Source: Pleurotus ostreatus/Saccharomyces cerevisiae fusant (taxonomy: Eukaryota; Opisthokonta). From it: a DNA stretch of 64,000 nt. Shown piece after piece: positions 3,722-62,591 of the stretch; within the stretch, counting starts at the first letter, position 1; each line of letters opens with the position of its first letter. The notes under the pieces were generated by a model. The model was given only the letters and a program-made list of their open reading frames with translations, searched no databases and was not told where the DNA came from. The stretch covers positions 1-64,000 of the forward strand of contig JAMQCK010000052.1 of the NCBI GenBank assembly GCA_024196135.1, written 5' to 3'. The position numbers and the translations under genes are program-made.

Positions 3722-3731
3722 ACACAACGAT
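3722..3731 (+). repeat. left 10-bp putative target-site duplication
   Basis: ACACAACGAT, repeated exactly and in the same orientation at 11319-11328, immediately outside the inverted arms of the 7.6-kb element. The bases next to it differ on both sides, so the match is exactly 10 bp. Confidence 0.55.
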
Positions 3732-3990
3732 TAGGCTCGTCCCCATCCGGCTCACGTGCTCGTGCCTCGCATAAGGGCGTGAGCCGGCTGGGCCCACTCG
3801 GAGGCTTTTTGGCGGAAAGCCGCTTTGATCTCAAGACTTGCCTCTTCCGGCGAAACATGAGGCGCTGACTTCGTCGTGGGGGAGGTATTTTCGATACAAA
3901 ATCGTCTCTGGGTCGGTATACAAATATTAGATTGCGGAACGAGAGCTTTCCAATGAATATAAGAACTTCAAAGACTTTTTGTCGGCCCGG
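3732..3990 (-). repeat. left inverted terminal arm of DUF6589-RecQ element
   Basis: On the minus strand this segment aligns with 11025-11318. Conserved blocks lie around 3940-3960 (TATATTCATT), 3840-3875 (ACGACGAAGTC then CTCATGTTTCGCCG) and 3795-3830 (TCAAAGCGGCTTTCCGCC, GAGTGGG). The outermost 25 bases match more weakly, starting AGGCTCG. Confidence 0.65.
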
Positions 3991-4173
3991 AAGTCGACTT
4001 GATTGAAGTCGACAGCGGTTCGTTCTCACGCGCGTAAAGTGCATCAACACGGGGCCGCTTCTCACTCACGCTCTACCTTCAAGGGCTGTCTTCAGACATC
4101 AGAAATGTGCTGCTTTCTAGGATGTCTTCCAAAATAATCAGCGCACTAGAAGATTCTATCTCAGCCGAGCTTT

Positions 4174-7100
4174 CTATGCCTCCTCTTCGTCACCATCCCA
4201 TTCCTCGTCAAGCTCGAATTCGTCCATCTCGAGCGCCACGTCGTCGCCATCGATGAGGGGCAAGGTGGGCGATAGTGCTGCCCCGTCGTCCGCGTACCAA
4301 GCATCCTCATCCGACTCGTCTTCCTCTTGGGTCTCATCCACCATCTCGTCCACCGCATCCTCTGCCCCCAGCTCGTGAGCACCGTGGTCGCCGCTCAGCA
4401 GGTCAACTGGTCCATTGGACAGCATCGAGGGCGAGGCCGCGGGACTGCGCGTGCGCGTAGAGGGATCATGGACCGTCATAAGCTCAGGGATGGAGTCCGT
4501 GGTCGAGTAGGAGTTGGTATCTTTTGTGGCGCGGCGGACCTTGGCCGCGAGAGTCGCGAGTGGCGTCAACAGGTGCCGCTGGCGCGTGTACTCAAAGGCT
4601 GCATTGAAGTCCTTCAAAGGGTTTGTCGAAGCTCCGTAGGTGAGCGCTGCCATCCCCGTAGCGATGACGTCCGGCACGGGCTTCTCGTTGTAGTCCAAGA
4701 CGCGGCCAGGCTTCTCGATGTACACCTCGTACTTCTCCAGGCTCTCCATCAGGCGGTTGATGTCGCGCGCAAGATCGGGTGTGGTATGCTTCTTCCCCTG
4801 CCTAGCCCCGAGCTCGCTGTTGACATGGTTTGCTAGCTCGCGCAAGACGTTGACGGTTGGCGAGATCATGGCAAGCCAAGCCCAAGAGTGGCCGTCACCG
4901 TCTGCCTTGTATATCCGCTACGTGCTGGGTAAGTGCCATGGACTTTTAGATACGGTCAGATTTGACAACACACTTTAATCCAGTAGTTGAGGTGCTCTTG
5001 TATGAGGTCAATCTCGACGAACGCGTTTGGCTTGCCGGTCGGGTTCTGCAGCCAGTTCTGCAATATAGCGCGCCTATTGTTCCTCGTGAGTAATGGTATA
5101 CGCCAGTGTGATGTGTTCGCGACTCACCGAAGCCCTTCGGGCCAGACATTCAGCACGTTATGGAGAAGGTGCAACATCTCGTGTGCGTATTTCGTACGTC
5201 CACTTCCTCGGTACGAGAAAACCCACAGCTTCAGTATAATCAGAACACGGCCAGAGTCCCCTGCCTTGATCGCGTCCGAGAACTCGCGGGACAATAAGGC
5301 GTCACGGATGAAGAGCACCGCATTCTCGAAAACCATGTCGCCCTTCTGGATGTGCGAGACGTACTCTGGTATGTCCACCATCCCTCCCTCCTTTGCGGCC
5401 TTCTTTGCATCTCGGACGGCCTTCTCACGCGCCCGTTCTTCAGGATCCCGCTCCTCCCGCAGTTCCTGAACTCGATCTGCGTCTGCATACGTGTCGAAGA
5501 TAGCCGCTGCCGCCGCTTCGAGGTCCTCGTATGTCGCCAATTTCGATGCTGCTTCGTCGAGATTCTGCGACTTCGTGACGAGTAACAAGCAGTGTAGAAT
5601 TCGTGCGTACAGCGACACGAAGATCAGGTCCCGTGTCGTTCGAAATGGTGGCAGGGAGCTAAGGACGATGGGAAGGCGACCTAGGCATTTGTTGTGGAAG
5701 GAGAGGCTTCCCGGATTACGAGGGCCTGAGCTCGGGTTTCCAAAGTGACTTTCAAGCACGCCGTGGCAGTCCGCGATCTTGGCGTGGAAAAGCCCGGGCA
5801 TCAGGACGATGTGGCGCCAGGATTGGAAGCCAACTTCGTGGCCAACGCGGACGTGCTGGATCGCTCGCTGTCGTGCGATGGTGAGTTGATCTCCGGCTAT
5901 GATAGTCACCAATCGTGTGTGTTCGGGTGAGTTGACATCCAGGTCCAGTTCTTTCATGACGGCCTCGATGATCTCGATGTTGCCAGTCACCTTGTTCTCG
6001 TCGATCTCCATCGCTGGTAGCGGGTGGAGCGCAGTTCTATGCACGTCGATAGCATCGGCGCTTCTGGGCAGAGAGGCCTTCAAGGCTCTCTCATGCTTAG
6101 TAAACCCGTCTCCACCGTAATTGACGATAATTCGCAGGATCGTGTGCACCATAGCCTTGCGGAAGAGTTTCTGCTCATCCTCGGATAGGCGCAGGCTCTT
6201 CTCCGTAAGTGGGGGTGCCTTCTTCATGTTCGCGTCGAGCTTACGTGCATCCAAGTCATCAACTGTGACGTTGTGAAGTGGGAATGCTGTCGCGCAGGTG
6301 CCGTTCTCCTGAGCATCTGTCAGGGAGTCAGAGATAGCTTGAGCGGTATGGCTGATGTACGTACTCTTTCGTCCGACGATCTGTTCTGCAATGCGGACTG
6401 ACATGTTGATATTGTCGTAGACTACACCAAAGATACGGCTAGACGCGAGACTGCGCGCTGTCCTCCGACAAGCGTCTGAGAGCTGACCGAGGGTGCCGGG
6501 AGACCTCCCACTTGTAGCTTTGTCACCATGGGAGATGATGCTGGAGTAGCCCATCGTCACCCCCATACCAGACAGAACGCTGAAATGCTGGCGCTGCGCT
6601 CCGGTAGCCATAAAGTACGTTCCCATGATTGATTGTGTATAGGTATTGCGCTGACTCGCCGCCAGCATCAAGGAACCAATAGCAGACGTGATCATCTGCC
6701 GTTCGAGTGGTACGTCAATCTTAGTATCCCGGTGTGAAGGAGAAGAGCGCTAACACACCATGTCTTTGCGATTCCGCCACTGCTCCGACAGCTGCTGCTG
6801 TGCGCGCGAGAATGTGGCAAGAACTCGATATACACCAGACGCCAGTCCGCGGAGCCGTGCACCCAGCTCGCGAGGCTTGTACGAGAGGAAGTAGTTCTCG
6901 TCCACCACTTTACCGGTCTTACGAAGCTCTCCGGAGTTGATGATAGCGTCGGACTCCTTCTGCGCTATGTGCTCCATCTCCGTAAGCACCCACTCGCGCA
7001 CAGTCTCTCGCACTGACTTGCTCATACGAGGACTCGCCCAATGACCAAACACCCGGTGTACCACCTGCCGATGTTGGAAGAAGTGGCGCCAGGTCCAGTC

Positions 7101-8039
7101 GTGCGTGTGCTTGACAGCAGGATCAAATGCGCGTTCAAGGAGGTCAGCTAAGTTGAGCTTCTCGTGTTGCAGTCGGTTGCCTAGCTCATCTAGTACGCTG
7201 TCAAGGCGTGCCTCCTCCAGGACTTGTGCTTGCGCAGTCGCCCTTCGCAGCAATTCGAGCTTTTCCGCCGCTTCCTCTCGTTTCCGAGAGGCCTCCCTTT
7301 CTGCGTCCACCTTCTCCTGCACGGTGCGTTGGCGTGCCCGTTCTCGTTCCGCTTCTGCCTGCGCACGGAAGTCGGCTGTCTCCTTCTCCCAAGCGAGCTT
7401 GCGTTGTTGATCCTCCTCTGCAGATGCTGCCTTTTTCCTCGATAGCGTCTGAAGGCGAAGCGCCTGACTGCGCTGTTGCTGTACCATCCGCGCTGTCGCC
7501 TCATCGTATATCGATGTGTCATCGCTAGCGAGCACGACTTCGGGCGACTCCGAATTTGTGGTGGGCATATCCTGCACGGCTCGCGGGGAAGGCTCTGATT
7601 GTATGTCTACAGCAGGATGCCCAGGATGCCGCGTGAGTCGCTGCATCTGATATCGGGGACTACTCGAAGGAGGCTCCAACCGCTCTGAGGTCGGTGCTCC
7701 ATGGGCTAGCTGGGCAAGAGGGACATCATCGGAGGTAAGGCTGCATTCCGCTTGCAGGGGACTTGACAGTGAGCCAAGGTCTTCCACCCATTCTTCCTCC
7801 ATTTGGCCACCCAGCGCGCTGATCTGCTGTGCGAGGGGAATAGAATCCGAGCTAGGGGTGTCCAAAACACCATGAAGGGTGCCATGCTGGGCAGAAACAC
7901 GATCGACGCTGTCTGAGGGGACGGGCAGCATCGTCGCGATGGGTGAGCTTGGTAGGCTGGATGGCGGCAGCGGGGAGCTTGGTTGAACCCTGGGGCGCCT
8001 AGAGGGACGGTGTGTGTTGCTCATGGCTGCGTCGGGCAC
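4174..8039 (-). CDS. DUF6589-domain protein (candidate transposase-like)
   Basis: Four exons: 8039-6759, 6695-5128, 5082-4974 and 4917-4174; all phases agree and the product has 1233 residues (a second Met at 8024 is also possible). The N-terminus is low-complexity and polar, followed by a Glu/Arg/Ala-rich coiled coil (about residues 190-290). From about residue 430 on it matches the agaricomycete DUF6589 family as I recall it: YDNIN (D521), QENGTCATAFPL (about 557-567), GDQLT (D696), LFHAKIA (H731) and ESHFG (E742). The C-terminus is very acidic. The family has no established function. Three spaced acidic residues are reminiscent of a DDE/RNase H-like nuclease, but this is inference. It is divergent with, and only 46 bp from, the RecQ-like helicase, and both sit inside inverted terminal repeats. 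Confidence 0.8.
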
Positions 8040-8085
8040 GTTTGGAATATAATTTCACATAATTTCCTCCTCTATTGCGACGTCC
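8040..8085. promoter_or_regulatory. 46-bp divergent start-to-start spacer
   Basis: Only 46 bases separate the start codons of the DUF6589 gene (minus) and the helicase gene (plus). The spacer is AT-rich compared with its surroundings (AATATAATTTCACATAATTT). Start codons this close imply a shared promoter and coupled expression; this is inferred from spacing only. Confidence 0.4.
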
Positions 8086-8113
8086 ATGGCTGATCCAAAT
8101 CCGGCTTCGACTC

Positions 8114-8148
<35 letters not shown>

Positions 8149-10838
8149 CCCTTACCTTCTCTTTCACTTGTACAATCACCACTACCAACACCCACACTGC
8201 ACGATTCTCGCACGACCAAGCAGCCTGATGCGCATCCGAGCCGCACGGGAGGAATCAGCATTGTCCCCCCTCGATCTATCACCTTTGTACGCCCCAGTCC
8301 GACTGACAAGGAGCTCGAAGAGCTTCCCGAGACCATTAAGCGCAAGGTGAAGAAGTGGGGTGCTGCCGGTGCGCGGTCACACCAGCTCGAATGTATCCGC
8401 GCCCAATGCCTCGGATATGACACGATCCTTCAGGCTGCCACCGGTGCGGGGAAGACGGGCATTGTCGCTGGTCCCCACCTGCTTCCGTACAGTAGGGGGA
8501 TGACGACGGTCCTCATCTCACCTCTACTTGCGTTACACGATGAGCAGGTCCAGGTCTTCAAGACGGAGTTCGGCCTTTCTGCCATCGCCGTCAATAGCTC
8601 GACCGGAGGGTGTTCCAAGGGGCTCATGGCGGTGTGTCTTATTAACGATGCTGGAGATCAACGAAAACTCACTCTGCTCCAGAGAATATGCAAGGGCGAA
8701 TGGCAGATTGTCATTGTCTCCCCCGAAACCCTCCTTCTACGAGCCTTCACCGACCTGGTGCTCCGTAAACCGGCCTTCGGGGCACGGTGCTTATCTGTCT
8801 TCATCGACGAGTCTCATTGCATCACACATTGGGGAGACTCCTTTCGAAAGCAGTATAGCGACATTGGCCTCGTCCGCGCCTACCTCCCGAAGAGAATTCC
8901 GATCATCGCAGTCACTGCAACGCTCAGTCAGATCGTTCGTAACGACCTCCTCACCACACTCCACATGGATCCGCATAATCTCGTCGAGATCAACGAAGGC
9001 AATGAGCGACCGAACGTCGTGCAGGTTGTCCGGCCAATGCAACATCCCATGAACTCCTTCCGTGACGCCGACTTCCTCATTCCAAGAACCACTCAACGTG
9101 CGGAAGATATCCCGAAAACACTGGTGTATTACGATGACATACAAGGGGGTGGCGATTTCGTAGACCATCTAAATAACCTCCTCCCAACGCAGCATCGTAA
9201 CCTCGGACTCGTGCGCCCGTACAACGCGAGTATGTCCAAGGATTATCGGGATATGCTCATGCTCCTTTTTCGGGAGGGGCATATCCGCATCTTAGTTTGC
9301 ACGGACGCTGCTGGCATGGTCAGTCCATTCTATCTGCTAGACTGGTCAGCAACTGACGCTTGACAAGGGATGCGACATCCCGGATGTTGATATAGTCCTC
9401 CAATGGAGGACACCCCACACACTGTCGTCATGGGTTCAGCGAGCGGGTCGGGCAGCAAGAGGGGCAGGACGCACCGGTATAGCGATCTTGCTTGTCGAAA
9501 AGTCAGCCTTTGAGACACCGTCGACGCCCTCCGAGCCCACTCTGATGAGTAACGGCCAGCGCGCAGCCATTGTCCGTGGTCGAGGAAGAGGCCGCGGTCG
9601 TGGGAGAGGTCGAGGGACGACATCAGGGCGTGGGCGTCGAGGTCGTGGCCGTGGGCAGGCGCGCGGTCACGAACTACCTAGCAAAGACCCTACTCGCGAA
9701 GAACTTTCGCCCGTGATGGCGGACCCATCGCCGATGCCGACTGAGCCAGTTCCAGTCACGTCTGGCCCGGCTCGCCTTGTCCCCGAAGACGCTCCTGGTG
9801 AAGGAATATATGTGTATATACAAACAAAGACATGTCGCCGGCTGGTCGTGGCGGAGGTCTTTCGCAACAAGAAGCCTGGTAAGTGGTGCATGTTAGTCGG
9901 TGTCGCGATAACGCCCTAATTCACGCACAGATATTGACCGCGTCGTCTGCTGCGACATATGCAACCCCGAACTCCTCGAGCGATGCCCTTCGGCTCCTAC
10001 CATGCCCCAGAAGAGACGCGCCGGGGTGCGGAAGTGTGCAGTCAATCTGGAGGTTGTTCAGGAGCTATACAGATGGCGCGCGGCGGTGAAGAAGAAGCGC
10101 TTCGCGGGGACGATGTACGCACCGCATGCGCTATTGCCGACGGAGTTGTGCGACGTTCTTGCGTCGATGGGTCCAATCCGCGATAAGCGGCATCTAGCAG
10201 CTGCATTGGAGGACGGTTGGTCGCTGTGGGAGGAGCTCGGTGATGAGCTACTTGGCGCTTTGCAAGCCATGGACATACCTCCGCTGCCACCAAGGAAGCC
10301 GCGCAATACGAAGCGCGCTGCCCAGGTGGACCCTAGCGAGCCTCCGCACAGACAGTCACGGAAACACCCTCGAATCGACGCTGCACCGAGCGATCCAGCA
10401 GCGACATCGACCGTGATGTCTGACGTCGACTGCGAGGCCGTTGTTAACCCTAGGCAAGACGAAGCTGTTCAGTCTCCAACACCCCATACCCGCTATCATC
10501 ACGCACCTGCCGCAAGTCAAGCGCCGCCCCCTTTGGTCACCAACGAAAACATATTCCCCGATCCGACATTCAGCACGCCCGTCCTCTCACTCTCGCGCGC
10601 GATCACAGATTCAGCCACCTATGCGCGACTCGGATCAGGGCTAGCCATCGACGGACCGGGTCGTAGACCGCTTGAGCCCAGCGGTGGTGGCGGAGAGCAT
10701 GGGCTATACGATAACGTGGGACCGCGGATGCCTGATCCAGAGCAGAGTGGAGGGATGGTGTCCTCGAACAGCAGTGGCGATGGAGGCTTTAAGCCAAGTA
10801 CTTACGAGGACTTCTGGGGTTCTTTTGGACGGCGATGA
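8086..10838 (+). CDS. RecQ-like DEAH-type helicase of the mobile element
   Basis: Three exons (8086-9318, 9368-9878, 9931-10838) encode 883 residues. The N-terminus is a Ser/Pro tract. Superfamily 2 motifs follow: Walker A ATGAGKT (K123), DESH box (D241-H244), motif III-like VTATL, and after the first intron the RecQ motif VI QRAGRAARG. Next comes an Arg/Gly repeat (about residues 478-510) and a short Cys cluster VVCCDICNPELLERC, as in the zinc-binding tail of RecQ-like proteins. A canonical RQC winged helix and HRDC domain were not seen. The C-terminal 250 residues are unrecognised. RecQ helicases unwind DNA 3' to 5'. The location beside a DUF6589 gene inside inverted repeats suggests a role in element mobility or replication rather than host repair; that is inference. 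Confidence 0.85.
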
Positions 10839-11024
10839 CATGAGGTTGTATTTGTGTAGGTTGAAGATAAGGATTGCGAACATTTCTACACCCCAGCGCG
10901 ATTGAGGGACTGAGAAGGACGACTTCACTGGAGGCGTGCGAGACGACAGCATTAGTCGATGACTAATGGTGCACGCGTGGGAAGTACCCACATGGACCTA
11001 CACTGTTTGCCCCAAATCTTCTCG

Positions 11025-11318
11025 AACTTCGTATATTCATTCGAAAGCCCTCTTTCTGAATTCGAGAATTCGTATACCACTTCAGAGACCGATTTTTTCT
11101 CGAAAACGACTGCTCACGACGAAGTCGGCGCCTCATGTTTCGCCGAGAATGGCAGGTCCGTCGGTCAAAGCGGCTTTCCGCCAAAAACCGGCCGAGTGGG
11201 TCCAGTCCGCTCGCAAGCTCGCGGATTGTCATTTCACGCGTGCGCGGCGAGCGGCTGGCTTGCAAGCTCGCGGATTGTCATTTCACGCGTGCGCGGCGAG
11301 CGGCTGGCTTGCGAGTCT
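11025..11318 (+). repeat. right inverted terminal arm of DUF6589-RecQ element
   Basis: This is the counterpart of the left arm. The inner 190 bases (11025-11212) align with the reverse complement of 3990-3780. The outer 106 bases are a tandem repeat that the left arm lacks in this form. The right end reads GCGAGTCT and is followed by the 10-bp direct repeat. Confidence 0.6.
11213..11310 (+). repeat. 49-bp tandem repeat, two copies
   Basis: Two identical 49-base units (11213-11261 and 11262-11310) begin GCAAGCTCGCGGATTGTCAT; a third copy starts and stops after a few bases. The array sits just inside the right end of the DUF6589-RecQ element and may be a subterminal protein-binding array. Confidence 0.85.
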
Positions 11319-11328
11319 ACACAACGAT
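11319..11328 (+). repeat. right 10-bp putative target-site duplication
   Basis: ACACAACGAT, identical to 3722-3731, directly beyond the right terminal arm. Confidence 0.55.
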
Positions 11329-24050: not shown

Positions 24051-27000
24051 TCACATCACCATGCAGCCGTAGCCTGGTCCTCCGAGATCGTCGTCGTCGT
24101 CGGTAGGCTGCTCCCGGTAAACTCGGCGAGTAGGTCGAGGTTTAGCGTGGAGGAAGCCTTGAACGCCCCAATACAACTCTTCTTCATCTTCCTCATCGTC
24201 GTCGTCCTCCTCCGGCCCATCCTCCTTGTCTTCTCTATCCTCCCCTTCCCCCTTGTTGTCCTGGACCGCCTCCCGTGCGACATTGCGCGCAGTCGCAGCT
24301 CCTTCGGCGCCTCCACGTCCTGGACCGACCGCTCCGGCATGCTCCTCTACGGCCTCGGCGTCCTCGCGTGCGTCTCGGAAGGCCTCCCCGTCCACTGCCT
24401 CTTCCTCAACTGGTTCTGCCTTCACGCCGGCCGCCGCATCTTCGTTGTCGATACCTCTTTCGACTTCCGCGCGTTGAGCTTGGGGCGCTGCAGTTGCATC
24501 GACCGCGGCGTCTATTCGCGCCACACGTGCCGGCACAGCGGCGACCTGATGAGCTTCAGCTTGGGCAACATATGATAGTCTCGGCTCGACCCTTACCTCT
24601 TCTGTCTGCACCGCTGCGTCCTGGTACCTGCGCTCGACAAATCGCTGCACGGGCCGCACACGAACTAGTAACTGACGACGAGCGTCCACCACCTGCTGTC
24701 CAGGTGGAGAAATCACAAAAGCCCGCACCGAGACATGCGGATCCTGCCTTTCACCCGGGATCGGATGCGGGGCAAGCTCCTGCTCGCGGTCGAGGAGTAG
24801 ACGGCGTAGCTGCACGATTTGCGCTACTGTAAGCTCGTGTAATCGAATACGGTCAGCGTCCGCGCGTGGAGATGGTGGGTCGGCGACGTTGGCTGCCGCA
24901 GCCGCTGGAGCGTCAGGAGCAGGCCGCTGGGGAGGAGCAGGCTGCTGCTGAGTAGCGGGCTGTGGTGGGCGTGCAGGCTGTTGGGGTTGCTCAGGCTGTT
25001 GGGGTGGAGCACGCTGCTGTCGAGGGACAGGCTGTGCTGGCCGAACAGGCTGCGGTGGGCGAACAGGCTGTTGGAGCGGGGCAGGTTGCTGCTGAGGAGC
25101 AGGCTGTGGTGCAGCGACAGGCCGTTGAGCTGGGATTGGTTGCTGCCGAGGTGCGGGTTGTGGCTGAGGGGCAGCCTTAGGTGGAGGGACCGGCAGTTGA
25201 GGAGGGACAGGCTGCGGCGGACGAACAGGCTGCTGAGCTAGGATCGGTTGCTTGGGAGGCGCGGGCTGTTGAGGAGGAGTAGGCTGTCGAGGAGGGACGG
25301 GCTGCTGCTGAGGAGCAGGCGCCCTTGGCTGCACCCGAGGCTGGATCGGTGGCGCTTGTGCTTGAGCAGGAGCTTGGGCGGGCTGAGCTTGCAGCGCGGC
25401 CGGCTGCCTCGGTTGAGCCTGCGGTTGAGCTGGCGCTGGCGGTGCCGGTGGAGCTTGTTGTCGAGCCTGCGGTTGGGCTGCTGGCGCCGGCGCCGGTGGA
25501 GCCTGTTGTACCGGTTGCCTGGGTTGGACTTGCGGCTGAGCAGGTGCTTGCGCTGGTCGAGCTTGAGGGTGGGCGGGTGGTTGAGCCGGTGGTTGAGCCG
25601 GTGGTTGAGCTTGCTGTGCCCGTGGCTGAGCTGGCGCTTGAGCGGCTTGAGCCGGTGGACGAGCTGGCGCAGGTGCAGCTGGGGCCTGTACCGGTTGAGC
25701 AGGAGCTCGAGCAGGTTGGGCTTGCAGTTGAGCAGGCGCCGGCGCGGGTGCAGCCTGTGGTTGGACGGGGCGCGGTTGTGCCTGCGGCTGCGCAGGTGCT
25801 GGTGCTGGTCGAGCTTGTAGTTGGACTGGGCGAGGTTGAGCTTGTGGCTGAAGTGGTGCTTGAACAGGAGGAGCCTGCGGCTGGGCAGGGCGTGGTTCAG
25901 CCCGCGGTTGTGGCGGCACTTGAGCTGGCTGAGCCCGCGGTTGAGCAGGTGCTGGCGCTGGTGCCGGTGCCGGTGCCGGTCGAGCTTGTGGTTGGGCGGG
26001 CGCTTGCGCCGGCTGAGCGACCTGAGCCTGAGCTTGGGCGGGCTGAACCGGGACTTGCGCTTGAGGTCTTGGCTGCGCTGGCGCTGGCGCCTGAGCTTGC
26101 GCCTGTACCGGCGCTGGCTGCCTCTGCGCCTGCTGCTGGGCCGGCGCTGGTTGCTGAGCCGGCGCGGGCGGCGCCTGCTGCTGAACTCGCGCAGCAGGCG
26201 CTTGCTGACGGACTGGCGCAGGCGCTTCTTGCTGCACGGGCGCCTGTTGCTGAGCTTGGGCAGGCGGCACGACCTGCGCTGGAGCTCGCGCCTGATCCCT
26301 CTGCGCCCGAAACTGCTCCAACAAAACACGCTGCTCCTCCATCTCCGCCGCATTGACCCTCACCGGCACCGCCTCCTGCGCCGCCGCATGCACCTCCGCG
26401 GGCACGTCCTCGCCCATCCCGATATTCCCGTGCGCTTCCCGCATATGCTGGTAGATCATCGCCCTTGAGAACACCTTCACGCAGCGCCAGCAAAAGTTTA
26501 CGCCACATCGGCACACGATGCGATTGCAGCCGACCATCTTCTCGACGAGGATCTGGCAGTTGGGGCACCGCTTGTAGTGCTTCTGGTCGATGAGCACCTG
26601 ATTGAGCTTGTCCTCCTTCTTGCGCCGGGCTTCCTGGGTTTCCCGGGCATGCTGTGCGCAGGTCTTGCCGGCATGCGATTCCTCGTGGCAAGAGGTGCAG
26701 ATGGTGACGAAGCAGGAAGGGCAAGCGAAGGTCCCTTCAACGTCGCCGGTGGCAGCGTAAATCTGCTCGCAAGCAACCGTTGGGCAGTACCGCCACTGAT
26801 TCGGCTTCCTCTCTATATGCGAAGTGAGGGCGGCCTCGAACACCCTGTCCATGGTCTCGTCGTTGAGGAACTTCCGGATGGTCGAGAGGGGAATGGGCAC
26901 GCCGCATTTGGCCTCGTTACCGACGCAGACCAGAGGGAATGCCTTGTTCTCCACCGCGCTCGTAAGCAGGTGCTTCACGCAGCCAGAGCAGTAGACGTGG

Positions 27001-44491: not shown

Positions 44492-47400
44492 ATGGGGAAA
44501 GCTCCGGGCTTCGGGTCGCGCGTCTCGGGGTGGTATACGAAGGTCAGCGACTTCAACGTCGAGTCGCTTTTCTCGCGCAAGCGGGAACCGGGCCCTAAGC
44601 GCTCGGTGTATGTCAACCAGCCGCTGCCGGACGACTACCGGGATCACAAGGGGCGTATCAAGAAGGAGCACACATACGCGACGAACCAGGTCATCTCGTC
44701 CAAATACACCATCATCACCTTCTTGCCGCGCAATCTACTCGAGCAGTTTAGGAGGGTAGCCAATGTGTGCGTGTTCGAACTTTGGCGTCGTGCGCAGAGA
44801 CTGACCACCACGCAGCTTCTTCCTGGCTATCGCCATTCTCCAGTTCTTCTCTATCTTCTCGACCATCTCCCCCGGTCTTGTCATCCTCCCCCTGCTCATC
44901 GTGCTCGGCATCACCGCGGTCAAGGACGGATACGAGGATGTGAAGCGCCACCAGTCCGATCGGCAGGTCAACCACTCGCCCGTGCTCGTGCTCGATGACG
45001 CAGAGTGGGAGAACCCGAACGCGATGCAGGCGAAGGAGAGCTCGCTCGTCCACAGTCTGCCCAGCTTCGCCTCGCTTTTCCGTCTACCCCGCTGGACGAA
45101 GCCCTTGACGTCCGATCCCGAGGAGGATGAGAAGGCGCCGCCACCTCCCCCTTCCCGCCGCGACTCGCTGCGGTCCATATTCAGCCGCACCCAGGGCCGA
45201 GCGTCGCACTGGGTGGAAGGCGTGTGGGAGGACATCCGCGTTGGCGACTTCATTCTCATCCGTGACAACGACGCCGTCCCCGCTGACGTGCTCATCTGCG
45301 CCACCTCCGAGGACGAGAATGTAGCCTACGTTGAGACGAAGAATCTGGACGGCGAGACAAACCTCAAGTCGCGCCACGCCGTGCCCTCACTCACGCACCT
45401 GCGCACCGCGGAGGACTGCATCAGCAAGGCGAACAGCTTCCGCGTCGACTGTGACCGTCCGGAGACGAACATGTATCGCTTCAACGCTGCTGTCGTTACC
45501 GACAGCGGGACCACTGCGGTCGATCTGCAGATGACGCTACTTCGAGGCACGGTCTTGCGGAATACGCGATGGGTCATTGGGCTTGTGGTCTTCACTGGCG
45601 AGGACACGAAGATCGTGCTAAACTCGGGTGGCACGCCGAGCAAGCGATCGAAGGTCGAGCGTCAGATGAACCCGCAGGTTCTGATGAACTTGGCTCTTCT
45701 GGCTGCTATGGCCGTCGCGTGTGCAATTGCGGACGCGCTCATTGAACAGGACCTGTACCCGAAAGGGGCGCCTTGGCTTTACGGTGCGAACAAGAGCGAC
45801 GACAATCCCAGAATCAATGGGTTGATCACTTGGGCATTCGCGTTGATCACGTATGTTCACCTTTCTCCACGCCTGCAACCGAGTCCTAACGCGTCCGTCT
45901 AGGTTTCAGAACATCGTACCCATCTCGCTGTACATCTCCATCGAGTGTGTTCGCACATGTCAGGCCGCCTTCATCTACTTCGATGCCGAAATGGTTTACA
46001 AGAAGACTGGTCAAGCGACGCTAGCGCGCAGCTGGAACCTCTCCGACGACCTAGGCCAGATTCAGTACATCTTCTCGGACAAGACAGGTACTCTGACGCA
46101 GGTTTGTAGCTTCATCTTACTGGCATTTGCATGTGTTTACCATTTTGCAGAACTCGATGATTTTCCGGCAATGCTCCATTGGCGGCAAGGCGTACTACGG
46201 GGATCCTGACCCCGATGCCGGTGAAGAAGCAGAGGTGACGTCTGCACCGCCAGCCACCGACGGCGATGAGAAGCAGGCCACCTCGTCCGAGAAGCATGAC
46301 CAGCGGCCTAACAGCGGCGGCTCCTCTACCATGTCGCCAGCGTCCCATACGGACGAGGATCTCAAGGTCCCGAACCCAGCCAAGGCTCCCGGAGTCAAGC
46401 TTGCCGGCAACGTCCTTCACCACTTCCGTGATGAGGAGCTCGCACGCGACCTCCATGCTGCCGTCGATACGGAGAAGGATCCAGCACACGCACGCGCCTT
46501 GAACGGCTTCTTCTCCGTCCTTGCACTCTGCCACACCGTCCTCACTGCTACCGACCCGGAGACTGGCGCCATCGAGTACAAGGCGCAGTCGCCCGATGAA
46601 GCCGCGCTTGTTCAGGCCGCGGCTGATATGGGATACATATTCCGCGGCCGCGACAAGGAGATTCTGTCACTGCAGACCCCGTTCAGTGACGAGTACGAGC
46701 GCTATGAGCTTCTGAACATCCTCGAGTTTACCAGTGCGCGGAAGCGCATGAGCGTCGTTGTGCGTAAGCTGGACGAGGAGGACCATCGGCTGCTTTTGTT
46801 GACGAAGGGCGCGGACAACATCATCTTCGATCGTCTGAAACCGGGGAACGACGAGCTCAAGAAGCAGACCGAGAAGCATCTGGATGAGTTTGCGAGCCAT
46901 GGTCTGCGCACACTTACGCTGGCGTACAAGATCTTGCCAGGTTCGTCCGCACAGTGGTCCGCTATTCGAGGGTATCTGACCGCGATTTACAGAGGACGAG
47001 TACGAGGCGTGGAGCGAACTATACAACGAGGCTACCGCCTCCCTCGACAGCCGCGAAGAGAAGACAGAGGCCGCCTGCGAGAAGCTCGAGCGCGACCTCC
47101 GCCTCCTCGGCGCCACCGCCATCGAGGACAAGCTCCAGGACGGCGTCCCCGAGTGCATCGCGGACCTCAAGCTCGCGGGGATCAAGATCTGGGTTGCCAC
47201 GGGCGACAAGCTCGAGACCGCCATCGCCATCGGACACAGCACTAATCTCATCTCGCCCGAGTCGAACATCATCATCGTCCGCGGGAGCAGCGGGGACGGC
47301 AGTCGGCCGGTGCACCAGCAGATGATCGCGGCGCTGGAGGAGTTCTTCCCGGATAGTGGGGTCTTGGACGAGTTTGAGGAGTTCCGCGAGTTCAGGCAGG

Positions 47401-49297
47401 CGAGGGCGAAGGAGGGGACGGCACCGCATCCGCTGCATCGGGTCAATACTGGGGTCTCGAGTATCGTTGGCCCGGATAATGGCGAGAGGCCTGGCGGTTT
47501 CGTGCTCGTCATCGACGGCGCCGCGCTCACCGATGTGCGTCATTGTCCTTCTTTCCATTCCAATGATCGTTGTTGACCTTTCTGTAGGCGTTCGCGGACG
47601 ACTCCAACAAGACCCTCCTCTTGCGCTTGGCCATGCAATGCGAAGGTGTCATCTGCTGTCGCGTCTCGCCTCTGCAGAAAGCGCTCGTCGTCAAGATGGT
47701 CAAGAACGGGCTGCACACAATGACGCTTGCAATTGGCGACGGTGCCAACGACGTGTCCATGATTCAGGCCGCAGACGTTGGTGTGGGCATCTCCGGCGAG
47801 GAGGGCTTGCAGGCTGTCAACTCGGCCGACTACGCAATCGCGCAGTTCCGCTTCCTCAAGCGATTGTTGCTGGTTCATGGTCATTGGTCGTATGCAAGGA
47901 ATGGGAATATGTGAGTCAACGGGAAGGCGCTCATAAGGAATCGGTCTACTAACACGTTCATTTAGGATTGTCAACTTCTTCTACAAGAATATCATCTGTA
48001 TTGGCGTGCTGTGGTGGTATCAGATCTACTGTGGTTGGAGTTCGGCATAGTGAGTTTGGGTTGTCCTCAGGATGGTCCGCCTCTGACAATCTTGCAGTGC
48101 TTTCGAATACACGTATCTGCTGTGGTGGAACGCGTTCTTCACGATCGGTACGTCTGAGAATGTTGTCGTACGTGCATGTGCTGACGATTTCACAGCTCCT
48201 GTCATCGCGATCGGATTGTTCGACCGTATAGCAGACGACCATGTCATGATGGCCCTCCCGGAATTGTATCGTCATGGCCGAGAAGGCAAATGGTTCAGTC
48301 ACCCGTTGTTCTTCATCTACATGTTCGAAGGAGTCTTGCAGGTGCGTCGAGGTTCCCATCTCCGGTCTGCTTTGTCTGATCACACTTCAGTCCGTCATCA
48401 TATTCTTCTTCATCTACTACGTGTACGGGAAGTCGCCTACCGCACGTTCGGATGGCTGGGCAAATTTCCAGTACGAGTTCACGACAGTAAGCTTCATGTG
48501 ATATCATCGTGCAGCGGGGTGCTCACGGACGACTCAGACTATGGCCGTGGCTGCTGTCATGGTGGCCAATCTCTACAACGGCCTGAACACTAAAGTCTGG
48601 ACTGGTTGGGTGTTCTTCGCTGTCCTGATAGGCATCGTTCTGGTCTGGGGATATACTGTAAGCAGCATGCCCTTCTGTTTTCACAACGCCCCACTGAACT
48701 GAGGAACAGGCAATCTACACCACGATCGCACCAGGCTGGTTCTACACACCTGTGTACGGCAACTACAGGTTCCTCTTTGAGTCGCCGTACTTCTGGTTCG
48801 GAGTTCTCCTCACCACTCTACTCTGCCTTCTTCCTCGCTACATCTACCAAGCCGTCAAGTTCGGGTACTTCCCAGACGACTTCGACATCGTGCAGTACAT
48901 GCAGAAGGTCGATCCCAACCGGAATTACGAAGACTGTCGGCAGCCGGCCAGTCATCTCGCACACCTTCGGCGGACCACCTCCCGGGCATCCCAGGCATCG
49001 AGGGCCGGGAGTATCGCGTCGGCTGTTCGGCCACCGATGGACCCCCGCGTCAGCAGTCGCACGGACATGGCGACTGGCATGCGCTCCGTCCATCGCGGTT
49101 TCGACTTCGCTACGGAGGAGAACGGGGTGGCGATGCGGCGCATACAGACCAATCTGTCCGAGCATCGGGCGGCGAGCCGCCATCATCTCCCTCGACTACA
49201 CAAACCCAACCGGGACTCGACCCTTTCGCAAGTCTTCTCACTGCGCGGAAGGTTCAGGAAACGGCCGACGTCGGGGGACAAGACGGAGGCTTCATGA
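44492..49297 (+). CDS. P4-type phospholipid-transporting ATPase, copy A
   Basis: Twelve exons: 44492-44766, 44816-45850, 45903-46101, 46151-46940, 46993-47534, 47588-47910, 47966-48049, 48098-48147, 48196-48341, 48391-48486, 48538-48657 and 48710-49297; 1415 residues. Features: [25 protein letters not shown] (first membrane pair), actuator NLDGETNLK, phosphorylation site SDKTGTLTQ (D496), [31 protein letters not shown] hinge, and C-terminal membrane segments from [21 protein letters not shown] on. This is a flippase of the Dnf1/Dnf2-like kind, moving lipids to the cytosolic leaflet at plasma membrane or Golgi, normally with a Cdc50-type partner. Insertion-like loops follow [11 protein letters not shown] and [10 protein letters not shown]. 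It lies tail-to-tail with copy B, with closely matching exon lengths. Confidence 0.93.
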
Positions 49298-49989
49298 TGA
49301 CCTTACGACCACGACCTGGATCGGATCGGATTGCCTTTGATTATGGACCCGCGACCAGCTTAAGAGTCGCTGTTCTTGTACGCATACGATATGATACGCT
49401 CCCACACACTGTCCCCAGCAATACCTCGATCTCGCCTTGCATGCTTTCCCGTTGTCTGCTCCATCTGTATTACTATCAGACCAAGGGACTCTTGCCTTAG
49501 GTTACGGCCCTATTATTGATTTATCACCTACTTGCGTGGGGGCCAACGCGCCGCCTAGTATACGATCTCGCTTTGTGCAGCATAATGACACGATGATTCG
49601 TCTTGAGCTGGCCATGGACTCTTCAGCGAGTTATGGATGCGATTATGGACGCCATGCCATGCCTTTGCAGCGAGGCTTCCCCTGCATGATCATCTAGCTT
49701 GGTGAATCCCATGGACAATCCGCATATTCTATTACTTTTCGGCGAAGGGGTTTCGCGTCCATTGTTGATTACGGATAAATAACAAGGTATCTACTGCGTG
49801 CGTTGAGGGTCGTAAAGCACCGGATGACACCGACTGGAATCCAGGTAACGTAGCGAGCGTAGAGGGTGGGTTCACTAGATAATACAGGATATGAACAGAT
49901 AGAAGTATAGATAGTACGGTGGGGGGTGGGTGGCGCTGAACAGCAATAATACAGGAAGTAGGTACTAGGGGAATAGTCTGTAATCAACT
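49298..49989. other. 692-bp tail-to-tail spacer between the P4-ATPases
   Basis: The axis of the mirrored block (about 49.6 kb) falls here. No open frame with recognised features and no long inverted repeat was seen, so the two arms are not joined by a perfect palindrome now. Confidence 0.45.
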
Positions 49990-52900
49990 CTAATGAGACC
50001 CCTTCTTCCTCGTGAGGCCCCTCGCAAGGTGGGATAGGCCGTTCTTGAGGGAGGCTTTGTGGTGCGGATGTCGCTCGTCGGTTTCGTGCAAGGCTAACCG
50101 ACTTGCTGTACGGCGCTCGGAGAGGTTGGTCTGTATCCGGCGCATAGCCGGACCGGGCTCCTCCGTTGCAAAGTCGAATCCACGGTCGACGCTGACGATG
50201 CCCGTCGACATGTCTGTGCGACTTGCCATAGCGGTTGCAGGTCGCGAGACGCGTGACACGGACGACACGCCAGACATGACGGACATCGGTCGTGACTGTC
50301 GGCGCTTGAGGCGCGCCATCTCGATGTCGGTGCTGTCCTGCTCGTCGGAGGCCGGGCCCATCTTGAGACTGCGGTGCGGATCGCGCTTGCGGATGATGTT
50401 GACCATGTCGAGATCGTCCAGCTTACCGAACCCGGTGTTGTACGCGCGCGCCAAGTAACGGGGTGCGAAGCTCAAGCAGAAGGTGATGACGAGGCAGAAC
50501 CAGAAAATGGGCGAGTGGAACAGGTAGAAGTCGTTGCCAGCAAGGTTGACGGCACCGGTGCTCGCAGGGTCGAGCGAGGAGTAGATAGCCTGGAATCAGG
50601 TTAGCGATATGCTCGCGGAGACGACAATGTAAACATACCGTGTAGACCCAGACGATGAGGGTGCCAACTTGAGTGCCAAAGAGCAACCACCACGTCCATG
50701 CATGAGCCGCAAAGCCAATGTACAAGTTGGCAATCAGCACGATCGCCATGATCATTGTCTGCAAGAAAAGGTCAGCGACTTATCCTGACAATCACAAGAA
50801 TCGAAACGCACCGTGGACATCTCGTACATGCCCGTGTCGTAGCCGTCTCCTCTTGCCGAGTCGGTCCGGTACGCGTACAGGATGAAGAAGAAGACGATGA
50901 CAGACTGGTAGACGCCGTCGATCATGTAGATGAAGAAGTTCCTATAGGCGAACCACGTCCCAAGACGTCCGTACTTGTACAGCTCCGGAAGGTCCATGAG
51001 GTCACGATCGTCTGTTACTTGTCAGCATTGCGATTTGGATAGCTAAAAGGGAGACTCACGAGCTATGCGATCGAAAAGACCAATAGCAGGGCAAGACAGC
51101 ACAGTCCAGATGGAGTTGTAGAAAAGCACGTAGATGTAATCGAAGACGCTGAAGAGTCGATCAGTACATCGTCACGAACAGAAGGGGGAAGATACTCACT
51201 AGTAACCGCTCCACGCGCTATAGATCTGGAACCACCAAAGCACACCAACAGGCACAATGTTTTTGTAGAAGAAGGTCAAGATCATCTTCGAGATGCGCGC
51301 ATACGACCAATGCCCGTGGACCAGCAGCAACTTCTTCAGGAAGCGGAACTGTGCGATGGCGTAGTCGGACGAGTTTACGGCCTGGCGACCTTCCTCGCCA
51401 GAGATACCGACACCAATGTCGGCGGCCTGGATCATGGAGACGTCGTTGGCACCGTCGCCGATGGCGAGGCACATGACGCGGAGGCCGTCCTTGACGAGGT
51501 GGACGATCTGTGCCTTCTGCTTGGGTGATACACGACAGCAGATGACACCCTCGCAGAGTATGGCCAGACGCAGGAGCGTAGCGCGGTTCTCATCATCGTC
51601 GAATGCCTACGCGAAGGATAAGCCCAAGTACGAACACGTTTGGGGAAATACATACGTCGTGCAACGCAGCACCGTCGATGACGAGGACGAAGCCGCCTGG
51701 CCTGTCGCCGTTCTCGGGACCGACGATGGAAGAAACACCAGTGTTGACGCGGCGAAGCTGATTCCCTCCCGGTGATGGTGGTGCACCGGTCTTCTCCAGC
51801 TCTAGTTGTTCGTCCTGATTGACGTGCTCCGGGAAGAAGGTCTCGATAGCTGCGTGCATCTGCTGCCTGACGGGACGTCCAGACGGATTACCACCGCGAA
51901 CGACAATGATGTTCGAGTCTTCGCCGATGAGATTGGTGCTACGGCCGATGGCTGTGAAGATGTTAGCATACAGCTGGTCGTAGCGACGCATATACACGTA
52001 CCTATAGCAGTCTCGAGCTTGTCACCGGTAGCGACCCAAATCTTGATACCGCCGCGCTTGAGGTCGGCGATGGTCTCCGGCACCTCGTCTTGAAGACGAT
52101 CTTCGACGGCCGTAGCACCAAGAAGGCGAAGGTCGGTCTCGAGCTCCTCGCAGACGGCCTCGATCTTCTCCTCACGCTCATCCATAGCCACAGATGCCTC
52201 ATGGTAACGGTCGCTCCAGGCGACGTAGTCCTCCTCTGCGAGGTCGTGAGCGATTCGTTACAAGAGCAAGGGCAGATCATACATACCTCGGATGACCTTG
52301 TACGCCAGAGTCAAAGTCCGCAGACCGTGACGCGCGAACTCGGAGAGATGCTCCTCCGTCGCGGCCTTCAAGTCGTCAGAGCCGGCCCGGAGGCGCTCGA
52401 AGATGACGTTGTCCGCGCCCTTCGTGAACAAGAACAACCGGCCGTCCTCATCGTCAAGCTTGCGCAGCACCACACTCATCCGCTTGCGCGCGCTCGTGAA
52501 CTCGAGCACGTTGAGTAGCTCGTAGCGCTCGATCGACGACGGCGTCTGCAGCGTCAGAACCTCCTTGTCTTGGCCGAGGAAGATATAGCCGATGTCCGCG
52601 GCGGCCTGCACGAGCGCGGCCTCGTCCGGAGACTGCGCCTTGTATTCGATCTGGTCGGTCTCGGTGTCATGCGAAGCGAGGACGGTGTGGCAGAGGGCGA
52701 GGCAGGACAGGAAGCCGTTGAGAAGACGCGCGTGTGCCGCGTCGGCGGGGTCAGACTTCTCCGAGAACGCCGCGTCGAGATCCGCCTGCAGCGCAGCATC
52801 TTTGAAGTGCGGGATCGCCGTCTTGAACTTGGGCAACGCTTCCGAAGACGAAGACTGCTTCGCGACGATGATCTCCTCCGCTTCAGCTTCTTCGTCGCCC

Positions 52901-54575
52901 GTGTACGAGCGTCCACCAATGGAACATTGTCGGAAAACCATGACGTTCTGCATATAATTAGCACGAGTGCCACCCAGCACCGCGGAAAGCAGCCGTACCT
53001 GCGTAAGAGTACCCGTCTTGTCCGAGAAAATGTACTCAATCTGACCCAGGTCATCCGCCAAGTTCCAGCTGCGCGCAACGGTGCGCTGGCCAGTCTTCTG
53101 ATACTTGAGATCATCGTCGAAGTAGATCGAGGCGGCCTGAAGCGTCCGCACGACTTCGAGCGAGATGTACAGGGAGATGGGGATGATGATTTGGAAGCTG
53201 CGACAGTGTGAGTCAAGACTGAGGTAGCAGAAGGGGTTGAAACTCACGTCAGGAGGGAGAACGCCCAGGTAATGAGACCGTTGATGCTTGGGTTGTCGTC
53301 GTTCTGATTATCACCGTATAACCACGGAGCGCCGAGAGGATAGTACTTCTGCTCCAGCACCGAGTCAACTATACCGCAGACCACGGTCATGATAGCAAGC
53401 AGTGCAAGGTTCAAGAGCCTGTGAGATGGTCAGCGTAATCGCGTGTACCGGTAACGTCGGGACGTACACTTGACCATTCATCTGACGCTCGATCTTCGTC
53501 CGCTTACTTGGGGTCAGACCTCCGTTGAGCACGATCTTGGTGTCGACACCGGTGAAAAGAACGACGCCGACGACCCATTTGGTGTTTCTTAGGATAGTCC
53601 CCCGAAGCAGAACATTGACGAGATCGACCGAGGACTTCATACCCGCCACCGAGACCGCCGCGTTAATCCTATACATGTTCATGTCCGGCCGGTCACAGTC
53701 GACACTGAACTTGTTCTCCGGGTTGACGCAGTCCTCGGGTGTCCGTATGTGCGTCAGCGCAGGAACCGCGCTACGCGACTTGAGGTTCGTCTCGCCATCC
53801 AAGTTCTTGGTCTCAACGAACGCGACGTTGGCGTCCTCGGAGGTAGAGCATATGAGAATGTCAGCTGGTATGGCTTCGCCGTCCGTGATCTTGACGAAGT
53901 CGCCAACGCGCAGGTCTTCCCACAGCTCCGTCTTCCAATGCGGCGCGTGCGAGTCTGGAACCACTTTCCCGCCCTCCATGTCGCGATGTTTGACGCCGGG
54001 CAACTGCTTGGGTATGAGGCGGCGGACGAACGTCTTCTGCTTCCCCTTCATGGCGTTCGGGTTGTGCCAACCGTCGCCGGCTATCACGTCGACCTTGCTC
54101 TGGTTCACGTTCCTGTCCGAGACATGGCGCTTGTAGTCCTCGTAGCCATCCTTGATACCGGTCACGACAATGATGATGATGAGGGGGAGAATCGCGACAC
54201 CGGGAGAGATGGTGTGGAACTCGGGGAAGAACTGGATGATAGCAATACCCAGGAAGAAGCTGTTGGGAGAAGGGCGGTCAGGGGGGCTCCGAGACAAGAA
54301 TGCAAGGGGGCGTACATGTTCGCGATTCGCCTAAACTGCTCCAATAGGTTGCGCGGTAGGAAGGTGAAGAGGGTGTACTTGCTGGAGATGATCTGGTTCG
54401 GGTGGTAGACGTGGTCCTTGAGGACGTGTCCGCGGTGGTCATAGTAGTCCTTGGGGAGCTCTTCGTGCACGAACACCGTGCGCGGGCCGACGTGCCTCTG
54501 CTTCGGGGAGAAGAGGCGCTCGATGGAGAAGCGCGCGGACCATTTGGCTAGGGTGTTCATGGACTGTTTGCTCAT
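49990..54575 (-). CDS. P4-type phospholipid-transporting ATPase, copy B
   Basis: Twelve exons on the minus strand: 54575-54316, 54259-53468, 53418-53248, 53197-52999, 52947-52287, 52235-52002, 51951-51656, 51606-51200, 51148-51060, 51011-50812, 50758-50639 and 50589-49990; 1342 residues. Motifs match copy [30 protein letters not shown] (D467), [43 protein letters not shown] and the C-terminal [21 protein letters not shown]. Copies A and B share several exon lengths (the DKTG exon is 199 nt in both), pointing to a gene duplication. Main differences are a shorter extracytosolic loop and a shorter insert after the CSIGG segment. Both look catalytically complete. Confidence 0.93.
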
Positions 54576-61630: not shown

Positions 61631-62591
61631 TAGACCTGCTCAATTCTCAAAAATCGCGAAATTCCCAGAAAGGAAGGCGAGGTGTCGCGGCGCGCTTTTG
61701 GGCCCTTTCCGTCCGAGCATAACGTCCCAAATTCGAGGAAAGAACATAACAATCGATGATAAATCGAGTTGAATCTCTATACCGAGTTTGGTGACCGCAG
61801 TGTGAGTGCGCGCCCCGCAAATCCGCTCGAAGTGGTCGAGCGGACGCAAGGCTTGCCTAAAATGGTAACAGCCATCTCCGAGCGCTGTCTCTGCCCTTCG
61901 CCGTCACGCGGGGGCGCCGGGAGCCTTCGAAATCATCATAGTCATCAAGAAGGAATACATATAATCTACCTAGGACCGCTTTTTCGCCCCCAAAACATAC
62001 CACAACTCGCCTAGACCTCTCACTGGCATTCCGGCCATCTCTGGTGCTGCAACACGATTTATAGAGCTCCTGCTATATATTACGAAGGTAAGCTACCAGC
62101 TCAGCTTTATTATGCATCACTATGCATAGTCTGTGGGCGAGAGGAAGCCTTCCCGCACCTTCTGTCCTTAGACACATCGCCTGAGAGACTTAATCCAGTC
62201 TGAAGGCTATTCTGCTTGCCGCTATGCCGCCATGCTCAGATCACATCGCAGGATAATCCGACATAATTTATTCTTGATGACTATGATGATTTCGAAGGCT
62301 CCCGGCGCCCCCGCGTGACGGCGAAGGGCAGAGACAGCGCTCGGAGATGGCTGTTACCATTTTAGGCAAGCCTTGCGTCCGCTCGACCACTTCGAGCGGA
62401 TTTGCGGGGCGCGCACTCACACTGCGGTCACCAAACTCGGTATAGAGATTCAACTCGATTTATCATCGATTGTTATGTCCTTTCCTCGAATTTGGGACGT
62501 TATGCTCGGACGGAAAGGGCCCAAAAGCGCGCCGCGACACCTCGCCTTCCTTTCTGGGAATTTCGCGATTTTTGAGAATTGAGCAGGTCTA
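61631..62591. mobile_element. foldback element: 321-bp inverted repeats
   Basis: Arms 61631-61951 and 62271-62591 are inverse copies with a single visible mismatch (near 61732 versus 62480), separated by a 319-bp unique spacer. The outer ends read TAGACCTGC and GCAGGTCTA, so a TA target duplication of the Tc1/mariner type is possible but cannot be separated from the repeat itself. No coding capacity was seen in the spacer. The arms alone give mirror-image open frames of 60-80 codons, which are not genes. Confidence 0.75.

Follow-up and report, generated by a model that had tools for sequence, protein, structure and literature searches.

The window analysed here, a stretch of 64,000 nt, consists of positions 1 to 64,000 of contig JAMQCK010000052.1 (GenBank assembly GCA_024196135.1) from a Pleurotus ostreatus/Saccharomyces cerevisiae fusant; this contig is denoted C747 below, and other contigs of the same genome bear analogous labels. 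Near its start, the window contains a probable mobile unit of 7588 bp (3732-11319) with two divergent, intron-containing, uninterrupted genes (Table 1). The product of the minus-strand gene contains the DUF6589 domain in full (PF20231, E 6.8e-144 with a first gene model of 1225 aa); its best homologue, from Schizophyllum commune, is 96% identical, on which basis the host appears to be a Schizophyllum and probably S. commune. This gene contains four GT..AG introns of 48-63 nt, and another acceptor for intron 1 would give a protein of 1217 aa. The plus-strand gene encodes a RecQ-type helicase with DEAD and Helicase_C domains, which among proteins of solved structure is closest to bacterial RecQ, BLM and WRN. 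That two divergent genes lie here between inverted arms had been proposed in a previous reading of the sequence alone (hereinafter the sequence-only reading), and this arrangement is confirmed. The same reading reported a 10-bp direct repeat just outside the arms; an exact repeat does flank the element, with the length taken as 9 bp because other copies show 9, whereas the tenth base merely also matches. The inverted arms start 49 nt (left) and 107 nt (right) inward of the termini; a tandem duplication within the right end accounts for 49 nt of this difference. When TAGNC sites in the window were paired with GNCTA sites at a distance of 1-12 kb, only one of the 2448 pairs, the one that delimits the element, was accompanied by an exact 9-mer pair; the chance expectation in the 16-kb region around the element is 0.015. 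An open frame of 688 aa ends at 3635, approximately 100 bp before the start of the element.

Table 1. Features of the DUF6589-RecQ element (window coordinates)
Feature	Position	Strand	Basis or remark
Left target-site duplication copy, 9 bp, CACAACGAT	3723-3731	.	exact repeat
Left terminus TAGGCTCG and terminal hairpin (arms 3742-3765/3769-3792)	3732-3792	+	DNA fold z -3.2, first 80 nt
Left inverted arm	3781-3969	+	78% vs 11212-11024 over 190 columns
DUF6589 gene, 1209 aa	8024-4174; exons 8024-6759, 6695-6365, 6316-5128, 5073-4974, 4917-4174	-	gene model
Divergent intergenic region, 61 bp; promoters presumed	8025-8085	.	gene models
RecQ-type helicase gene, 883 aa	8086-10838; exons 8086-9318, 9368-9878, 9931-10838	+	gene model
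Right inverted arm	11024-11212	-	pairs with 3781-3969
49-nt tandem duplication within the right end	11209-11306	.	
Right terminus, TAGACTCG when read inwards; without significant hairpin (z 1.4)	11312-11319	-	
Right target-site duplication copy, 9 bp, CACAACGAT	11320-11328	.	exact repeat

Related copies and linkage of the two genes

The same 40-Mb genome yields at least 24 matches to PF20231 on 13 contigs, and on nine of these contigs a RecQ relative adjoins the DUF6589 gene. RecQ matches are also found on 14 further contigs, each of them weaker than the top match of every one of these nine. No RecQ was detected on C988, C1050, C350 and C609; on C1050 and C350, the matches are close to the ends of the contigs. 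In six of the 13 stitched regions, there is a single exact 9-bp duplication beside TAGNC termini, namely CACAACGAT (C747), CAGCAAAAC (C924), GCGTTGGAG (C333), TGGACAAGC (C1), CCTTCTCTT (C405) and TCGCCGCTA (C359); block shuffles yield 0-0.015 such duplications per region. All six 9-mers are different, none is TTAA, and every one of the six bounded copies encloses RecQ between its two duplication copies.

A seventh element, on C732, shares its ends with the C924 copy to the same terminal base on both sides (96% identity over 204 nt and 92% over 131 nt, with two long inner stretches at 76-78%) and lacks a duplication; it is considered decayed because its RecQ gene carries stops. Between these two copies (C924 87293-94367 and C732 3825-10809), synonymous sites differ at approximately 60%, yet the ends are 92-96% identical, which may reflect gene conversion or else strongly constrained ends. 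A lone element end is present at C82 10298-10501, as a 204-nt match with 95% identity to C924; in the 9.5 kb beside it, the window proteins find neither DUF6589 nor RecQ, and this stretch holds reading frames that we label Copia-like. At C171, neither ends nor a duplication were found within the 9.5 kb read, and altogether the remaining six regions, with C551, C1050, C350 and C609 among them read in part only, gave no 9-bp duplication. When up to two mismatches were allowed, a search for ends remained negative for C171 and C732; for C988, it gave a single pair, which has two mismatches.

The two genes diverge together. Across 34 external same-contig pairs and the nine pairs from this genome, the DUF6589 and RecQ distances are correlated with r = 0.946, a value reached in 0 of 2000 permutations (the largest permuted value was 0.37). 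The correlation holds for the external pairs alone (r = 0.931), for the nine own-genome pairs alone (r = 0.938; 0 of 20000 permutations) and for the seven that are left when close relatives are removed (r = 0.83; 2 of 20000 permutations). Because the nine pairs reside within one genome, shared species history cannot explain their co-divergence. The external pairs come from 40 shared contigs, of which five that offered more than one candidate and one of 12 Mb were not used.

Both genes are under constraint. Between C924 and C732, dN is 0.072 and dS 1.39 for DUF6589, and the respective values for RecQ are 0.098 and 1.13; in the comparisons of C747 with C924 and of C405 with C359, synonymous differences have reached saturation (0.79-0.85 per site), with nonsynonymous differences of 0.26-0.34 in both genes. 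The constraint on RecQ, seen in the three pairs compared, together with its co-divergence with DUF6589, argues for a real job of the helicase in the life of the element.

DUF6589 and RecQ also appear to be linked in other species, judging from the contigs on which homologues are encoded. Two homologue searches gave 246 and 299 DUF6589 matches at E up to 0.001. Among the best 120 of 246 DUF6589 and the best 120 of 287 RecQ homologues, 40 of the 119 distinct DUF6589 contigs share a RecQ match, where contig identity is deduced from equal length and the same species, and a common contig is not equivalent to adjacency. Approximately 3.8 shared contigs would be expected by chance under our assumption of 60-Mb genomes; for contigs under 200 kb, 10 are shared compared to 0.06 expected. 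Shared contigs are found in 29 of the 35 species present in both lists, S. commune included. In Schizophyllum fasciatum, both genes are encoded on one contig of 7141 bp, and in Phlebia brevispora, they are NM688_g2307 and g2309.

The DUF6589 protein and the element ends

In the DUF6589 protein, the proposed catalytic residues are D516, D675 and E955. The layout is DDE-like, with D339 in strand 334-344, D497 behind strand 492-496 and E775 in helix 770-791; the D, D and E are conserved and lie on the strands and the helix expected of DDE transposases, with D706 and D771 as alternatives. E683 and E769 were considered for the role of the third catalytic residue and rejected because both are changed in divergent copies. 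A Foldseek comparison with the PDB gave no significant match, and the profile of A1 gave none at E up to 5 against all PDB sequences. The assignment of the D-D-E triad and of a candidate RNase H-like fold is supported; catalysis by DUF6589 is inferred.

Among the seven elements with located ends, six have TAGGC or TAGCC at the DUF6589 side and TAGAC at the RecQ side; the C333 element has TAGAC at both ends. In 9 of the 14 ends, the terminal 80 nt fold into a hairpin with z of -2 or lower, which is the case for 8 of the 105 internal and 1 of the 28 flanking stretches (Mann-Whitney p 4.7e-5 and 3.3e-5, respectively), although the ends of C924 and C732 are near copies, so that there are fewer than 14 independent ends. 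C1, C405 and C359 have such hairpins at both ends, and C747, C924 and C732 have one at the DUF6589 side; the RecQ-side ends of these last three elements fall short of this value, as does C333 at either end. In C1, C405 and C359, the hairpin stems occupy similar positions and are unrelated in sequence. By eye, these three elements display a motif next to the terminus, CCTGG on the DUF6589 side and ACCGG on the RecQ side, which is repeated with GGTAAA approximately 45-70 nt inward (CTTGG in one inner copy), bracketing the hairpin. The repeated motif looks like a putative bipartite binding site.

The DUF6589-RecQ pair as a probable transposon and the alternatives

Taken together, these data are best explained by a class II DNA transposon in which DUF6589 is the DDE transposase and RecQ is encoded and kept by the element; we assign this interpretation a probability of roughly 0.86. 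The boundaries of the element, the duplications, the related copies, the co-divergence and the constraint on both genes are direct observations, and the role of DUF6589 as a DDE transposase that acts on TAGNC ends is supported by the DDE-like layout. A DNA transposon family with a DUF6589 transposase and a RecQ partner, which was put forward in the sequence-only reading, is supported by six 9-bp duplications, a seventh copy with shared ends, adjacency of the two genes on 9 of 13 contigs, co-divergence, the apparent linkage in other species and the DDE-like layout; the role of replication helper suggested there for RecQ is conjectural. In the proposed mechanism, DUF6589 would be a DDE transposase of the RNase H-like type that contains a large helical insertion, broadly as in Hermes and RAG1, and recognizes ends starting with TAG[A/C/G]C and often carrying a hairpin-forming palindrome. 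The transposase would pair the ends, cut or nick them and join them to target DNA with a 9-bp stagger, whereas RecQ might open the hairpin-prone ends or else resolve the donor gap or a replication intermediate. Between cut-and-paste and copying, the present data favour neither. A more specific version, namely a separate DDE superfamily with hairpin-built ends that needs its own RecQ to open or replicate them, through a helicase-dependent single-strand or copying step instead of simple cut-and-paste, appears doubtful.

Several observations qualify this interpretation. The TAGNC pattern was set after several copies had been viewed, so that the chance test is partly post hoc. The inverted arms score 147 bits, compared to a maximum of 141 bits for 300 randomly chosen positions of the window, which an old inverted duplication at 44.8-54.3 kb most likely explains; by themselves, the arms are not decisive for a transposon. 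Further copies bounded by the same arms, as asked for in the sequence-only reading, were not found: the left arm (3732-4032), the only one used as a DNA query against the genome, matches itself and the right arm alone, and the evidence for a family rests on diverged relatives. The divergent order of the gene pair is not general: this order is found in C747, C732 and C924, whereas in six of the nine pairs (C333, C171, C1, C405, C359 and C551) the order is convergent. In Psilocybe, 23 gene numbers separate CVT25_004322 from 004345, which speaks against adjacency. Finally, the family had been considered undescribed, and no description of DUF6589 transposons was found among the open-licence papers searched, in which the term DUF6589 occurs in 0 papers and PF20231 only in an optics paper, although a closed-access, unpublished or Repbase name may exist; however, helicase-carrying fungal DNA transposons, KolobokH and AcademH, are already known.

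As for empty sites, the right flank, the one searched, is unique in the genome, so that no empty paralogous site was seen for it. The joined flanks of the six elements, checked by eye for an interrupted host gene and without a search of the frames, gave no protein-level empty site; open frames that cross the junctions exist, for example, of 121 aa (C1) and 165 aa (C359).

Among the alternatives, it is unlikely that RecQ is a passenger or a neighbour, such as a telomere-linked helicase, and that DUF6589 alone is mobile. Four of the 13 DUF6589 contigs are without a visible RecQ, and subtelomeric RecQ genes exist in mushrooms (PMC7473861 and PMC10817607); however, the presence of RecQ within the duplicated boundaries of all bounded copies, its co-divergence with DUF6589, its constraint and the apparent linkage in other species argue for a helicase that belongs to the element.

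Mutator-like elements (MULEs) generate 8-11-bp, commonly 9-bp, duplications and have long inverted ends, so that the 9-bp duplications and the long imperfect inverted ends of the present element fit a very diverged MULE that acquired a RecQ gene. Such an origin is nevertheless improbable: the MULE domain PF10551 has no match in the window DUF6589 protein at E up to 0.1, no MULE family is present among 25 of the 30 families listed for 45 homologues, and a profile comparison with a MULE-matching frame from the same genome gave a probability of 0.4%. Furthermore, the element differs from MULEs in its TAGNC termini, in the presence of RecQ and in the lack of a C/DxxH signature, no such pair between the second D and the E being conserved at 80% in A1 or A2. 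The hAT duplications are 8 bp in length, in contrast to the 9 bp found in all six bounded copies; apart from carrying RecQ, the present element differs from hAT transposons such as Hermes in that the window protein is not matched at E up to 0.1 by the C-terminal dimerisation domain PF05699 (Dimer_Tnp_hAT), a model with 28 matches elsewhere in the same genome. The KDZ domain PF18758 (27 matches elsewhere in the genome) similarly has no match in the window protein at that threshold. Zisupton/KDZ elements are likewise fungal DNA transposons able to carry an accessory enzyme gene (TET/JBP), and the duplications of Zisupton are 8 bp in length (PMC12730594).

The least probable alternative, and a very improbable one, is that a known helicase-bearing transposon of the KolobokH or AcademH type is hidden under the Pfam DUF name. 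Academ duplications are 3-4 bp long, and the AcademH transposase is a different one, which, together with the 9-bp duplications found here, would set this type apart by description. The resemblance lies in the helicase and in the occurrence of AcademH in Basidiomycota (PMC10799480). KolobokH is a DNA transposon with a transposase and RecQ that is known from fungi only, and the rhodophyte Kolobok-1_CCri has RecQ on the complementary strand (PMC9587614). Kolobok elements are, however, described in the same paper as having TTAA duplications and the C/DxxH signature, as opposed to the 9-bp duplications of free sequence and the lack of C/DxxH here. In KolobokH, moreover, RecQ lies downstream of the transposase domain, whereas the present element has a separate RecQ gene on the opposite strand. 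Given that both types carry helicases, the principle already has a precedent. The DUF6589-RecQ element is a candidate new superfamily, in a comparison that covers KolobokH and AcademH by description and lies outside Repbase.

If DUF6589 is indeed the transposase of a helicase-bearing transposon, a function would be assigned to a Pfam family with hundreds of uncharacterised mushroom proteins, and many mushroom "RecQ helicases" would be transposon genes, which would alter how many repair and telomere genes are counted in these fungi. Annotators would gain a DNA transposon superfamily with searchable hallmarks (TAGNC termini, 9-bp duplications and hairpins at many ends). There would also be a further, apparently independent pairing of a DDE transposase with RecQ, which would make it possible to test why transposons retain a helicase of their own.

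Other repeats in the window

A 960-bp foldback element (61631-62591), with 330-nt arms that are 99% complementary, has five further copies in the genome at 90-93% identity, the one on C474 being interrupted; all six copies start with TAGACC and end with GGTCTA. No common 6-12-mer was found beside the ends, by script in five copies and by eye in the window copy, and no 9-bp duplication was seen. The foldback was considered as a non-autonomous relative given its TAGACC start and was not counted as such because TA duplications with GACC termini fit equally well. At 44813-54262, nested inverted matches (71-81%) extend over approximately 9 kb, as if a gene or a gene pair had long ago been duplicated in inverted orientation. 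The dense imperfect repeats at 24897-26169, with units of 46-56 nt and spacings of 12-120 nt, apparently represent a repetitive coding stretch.
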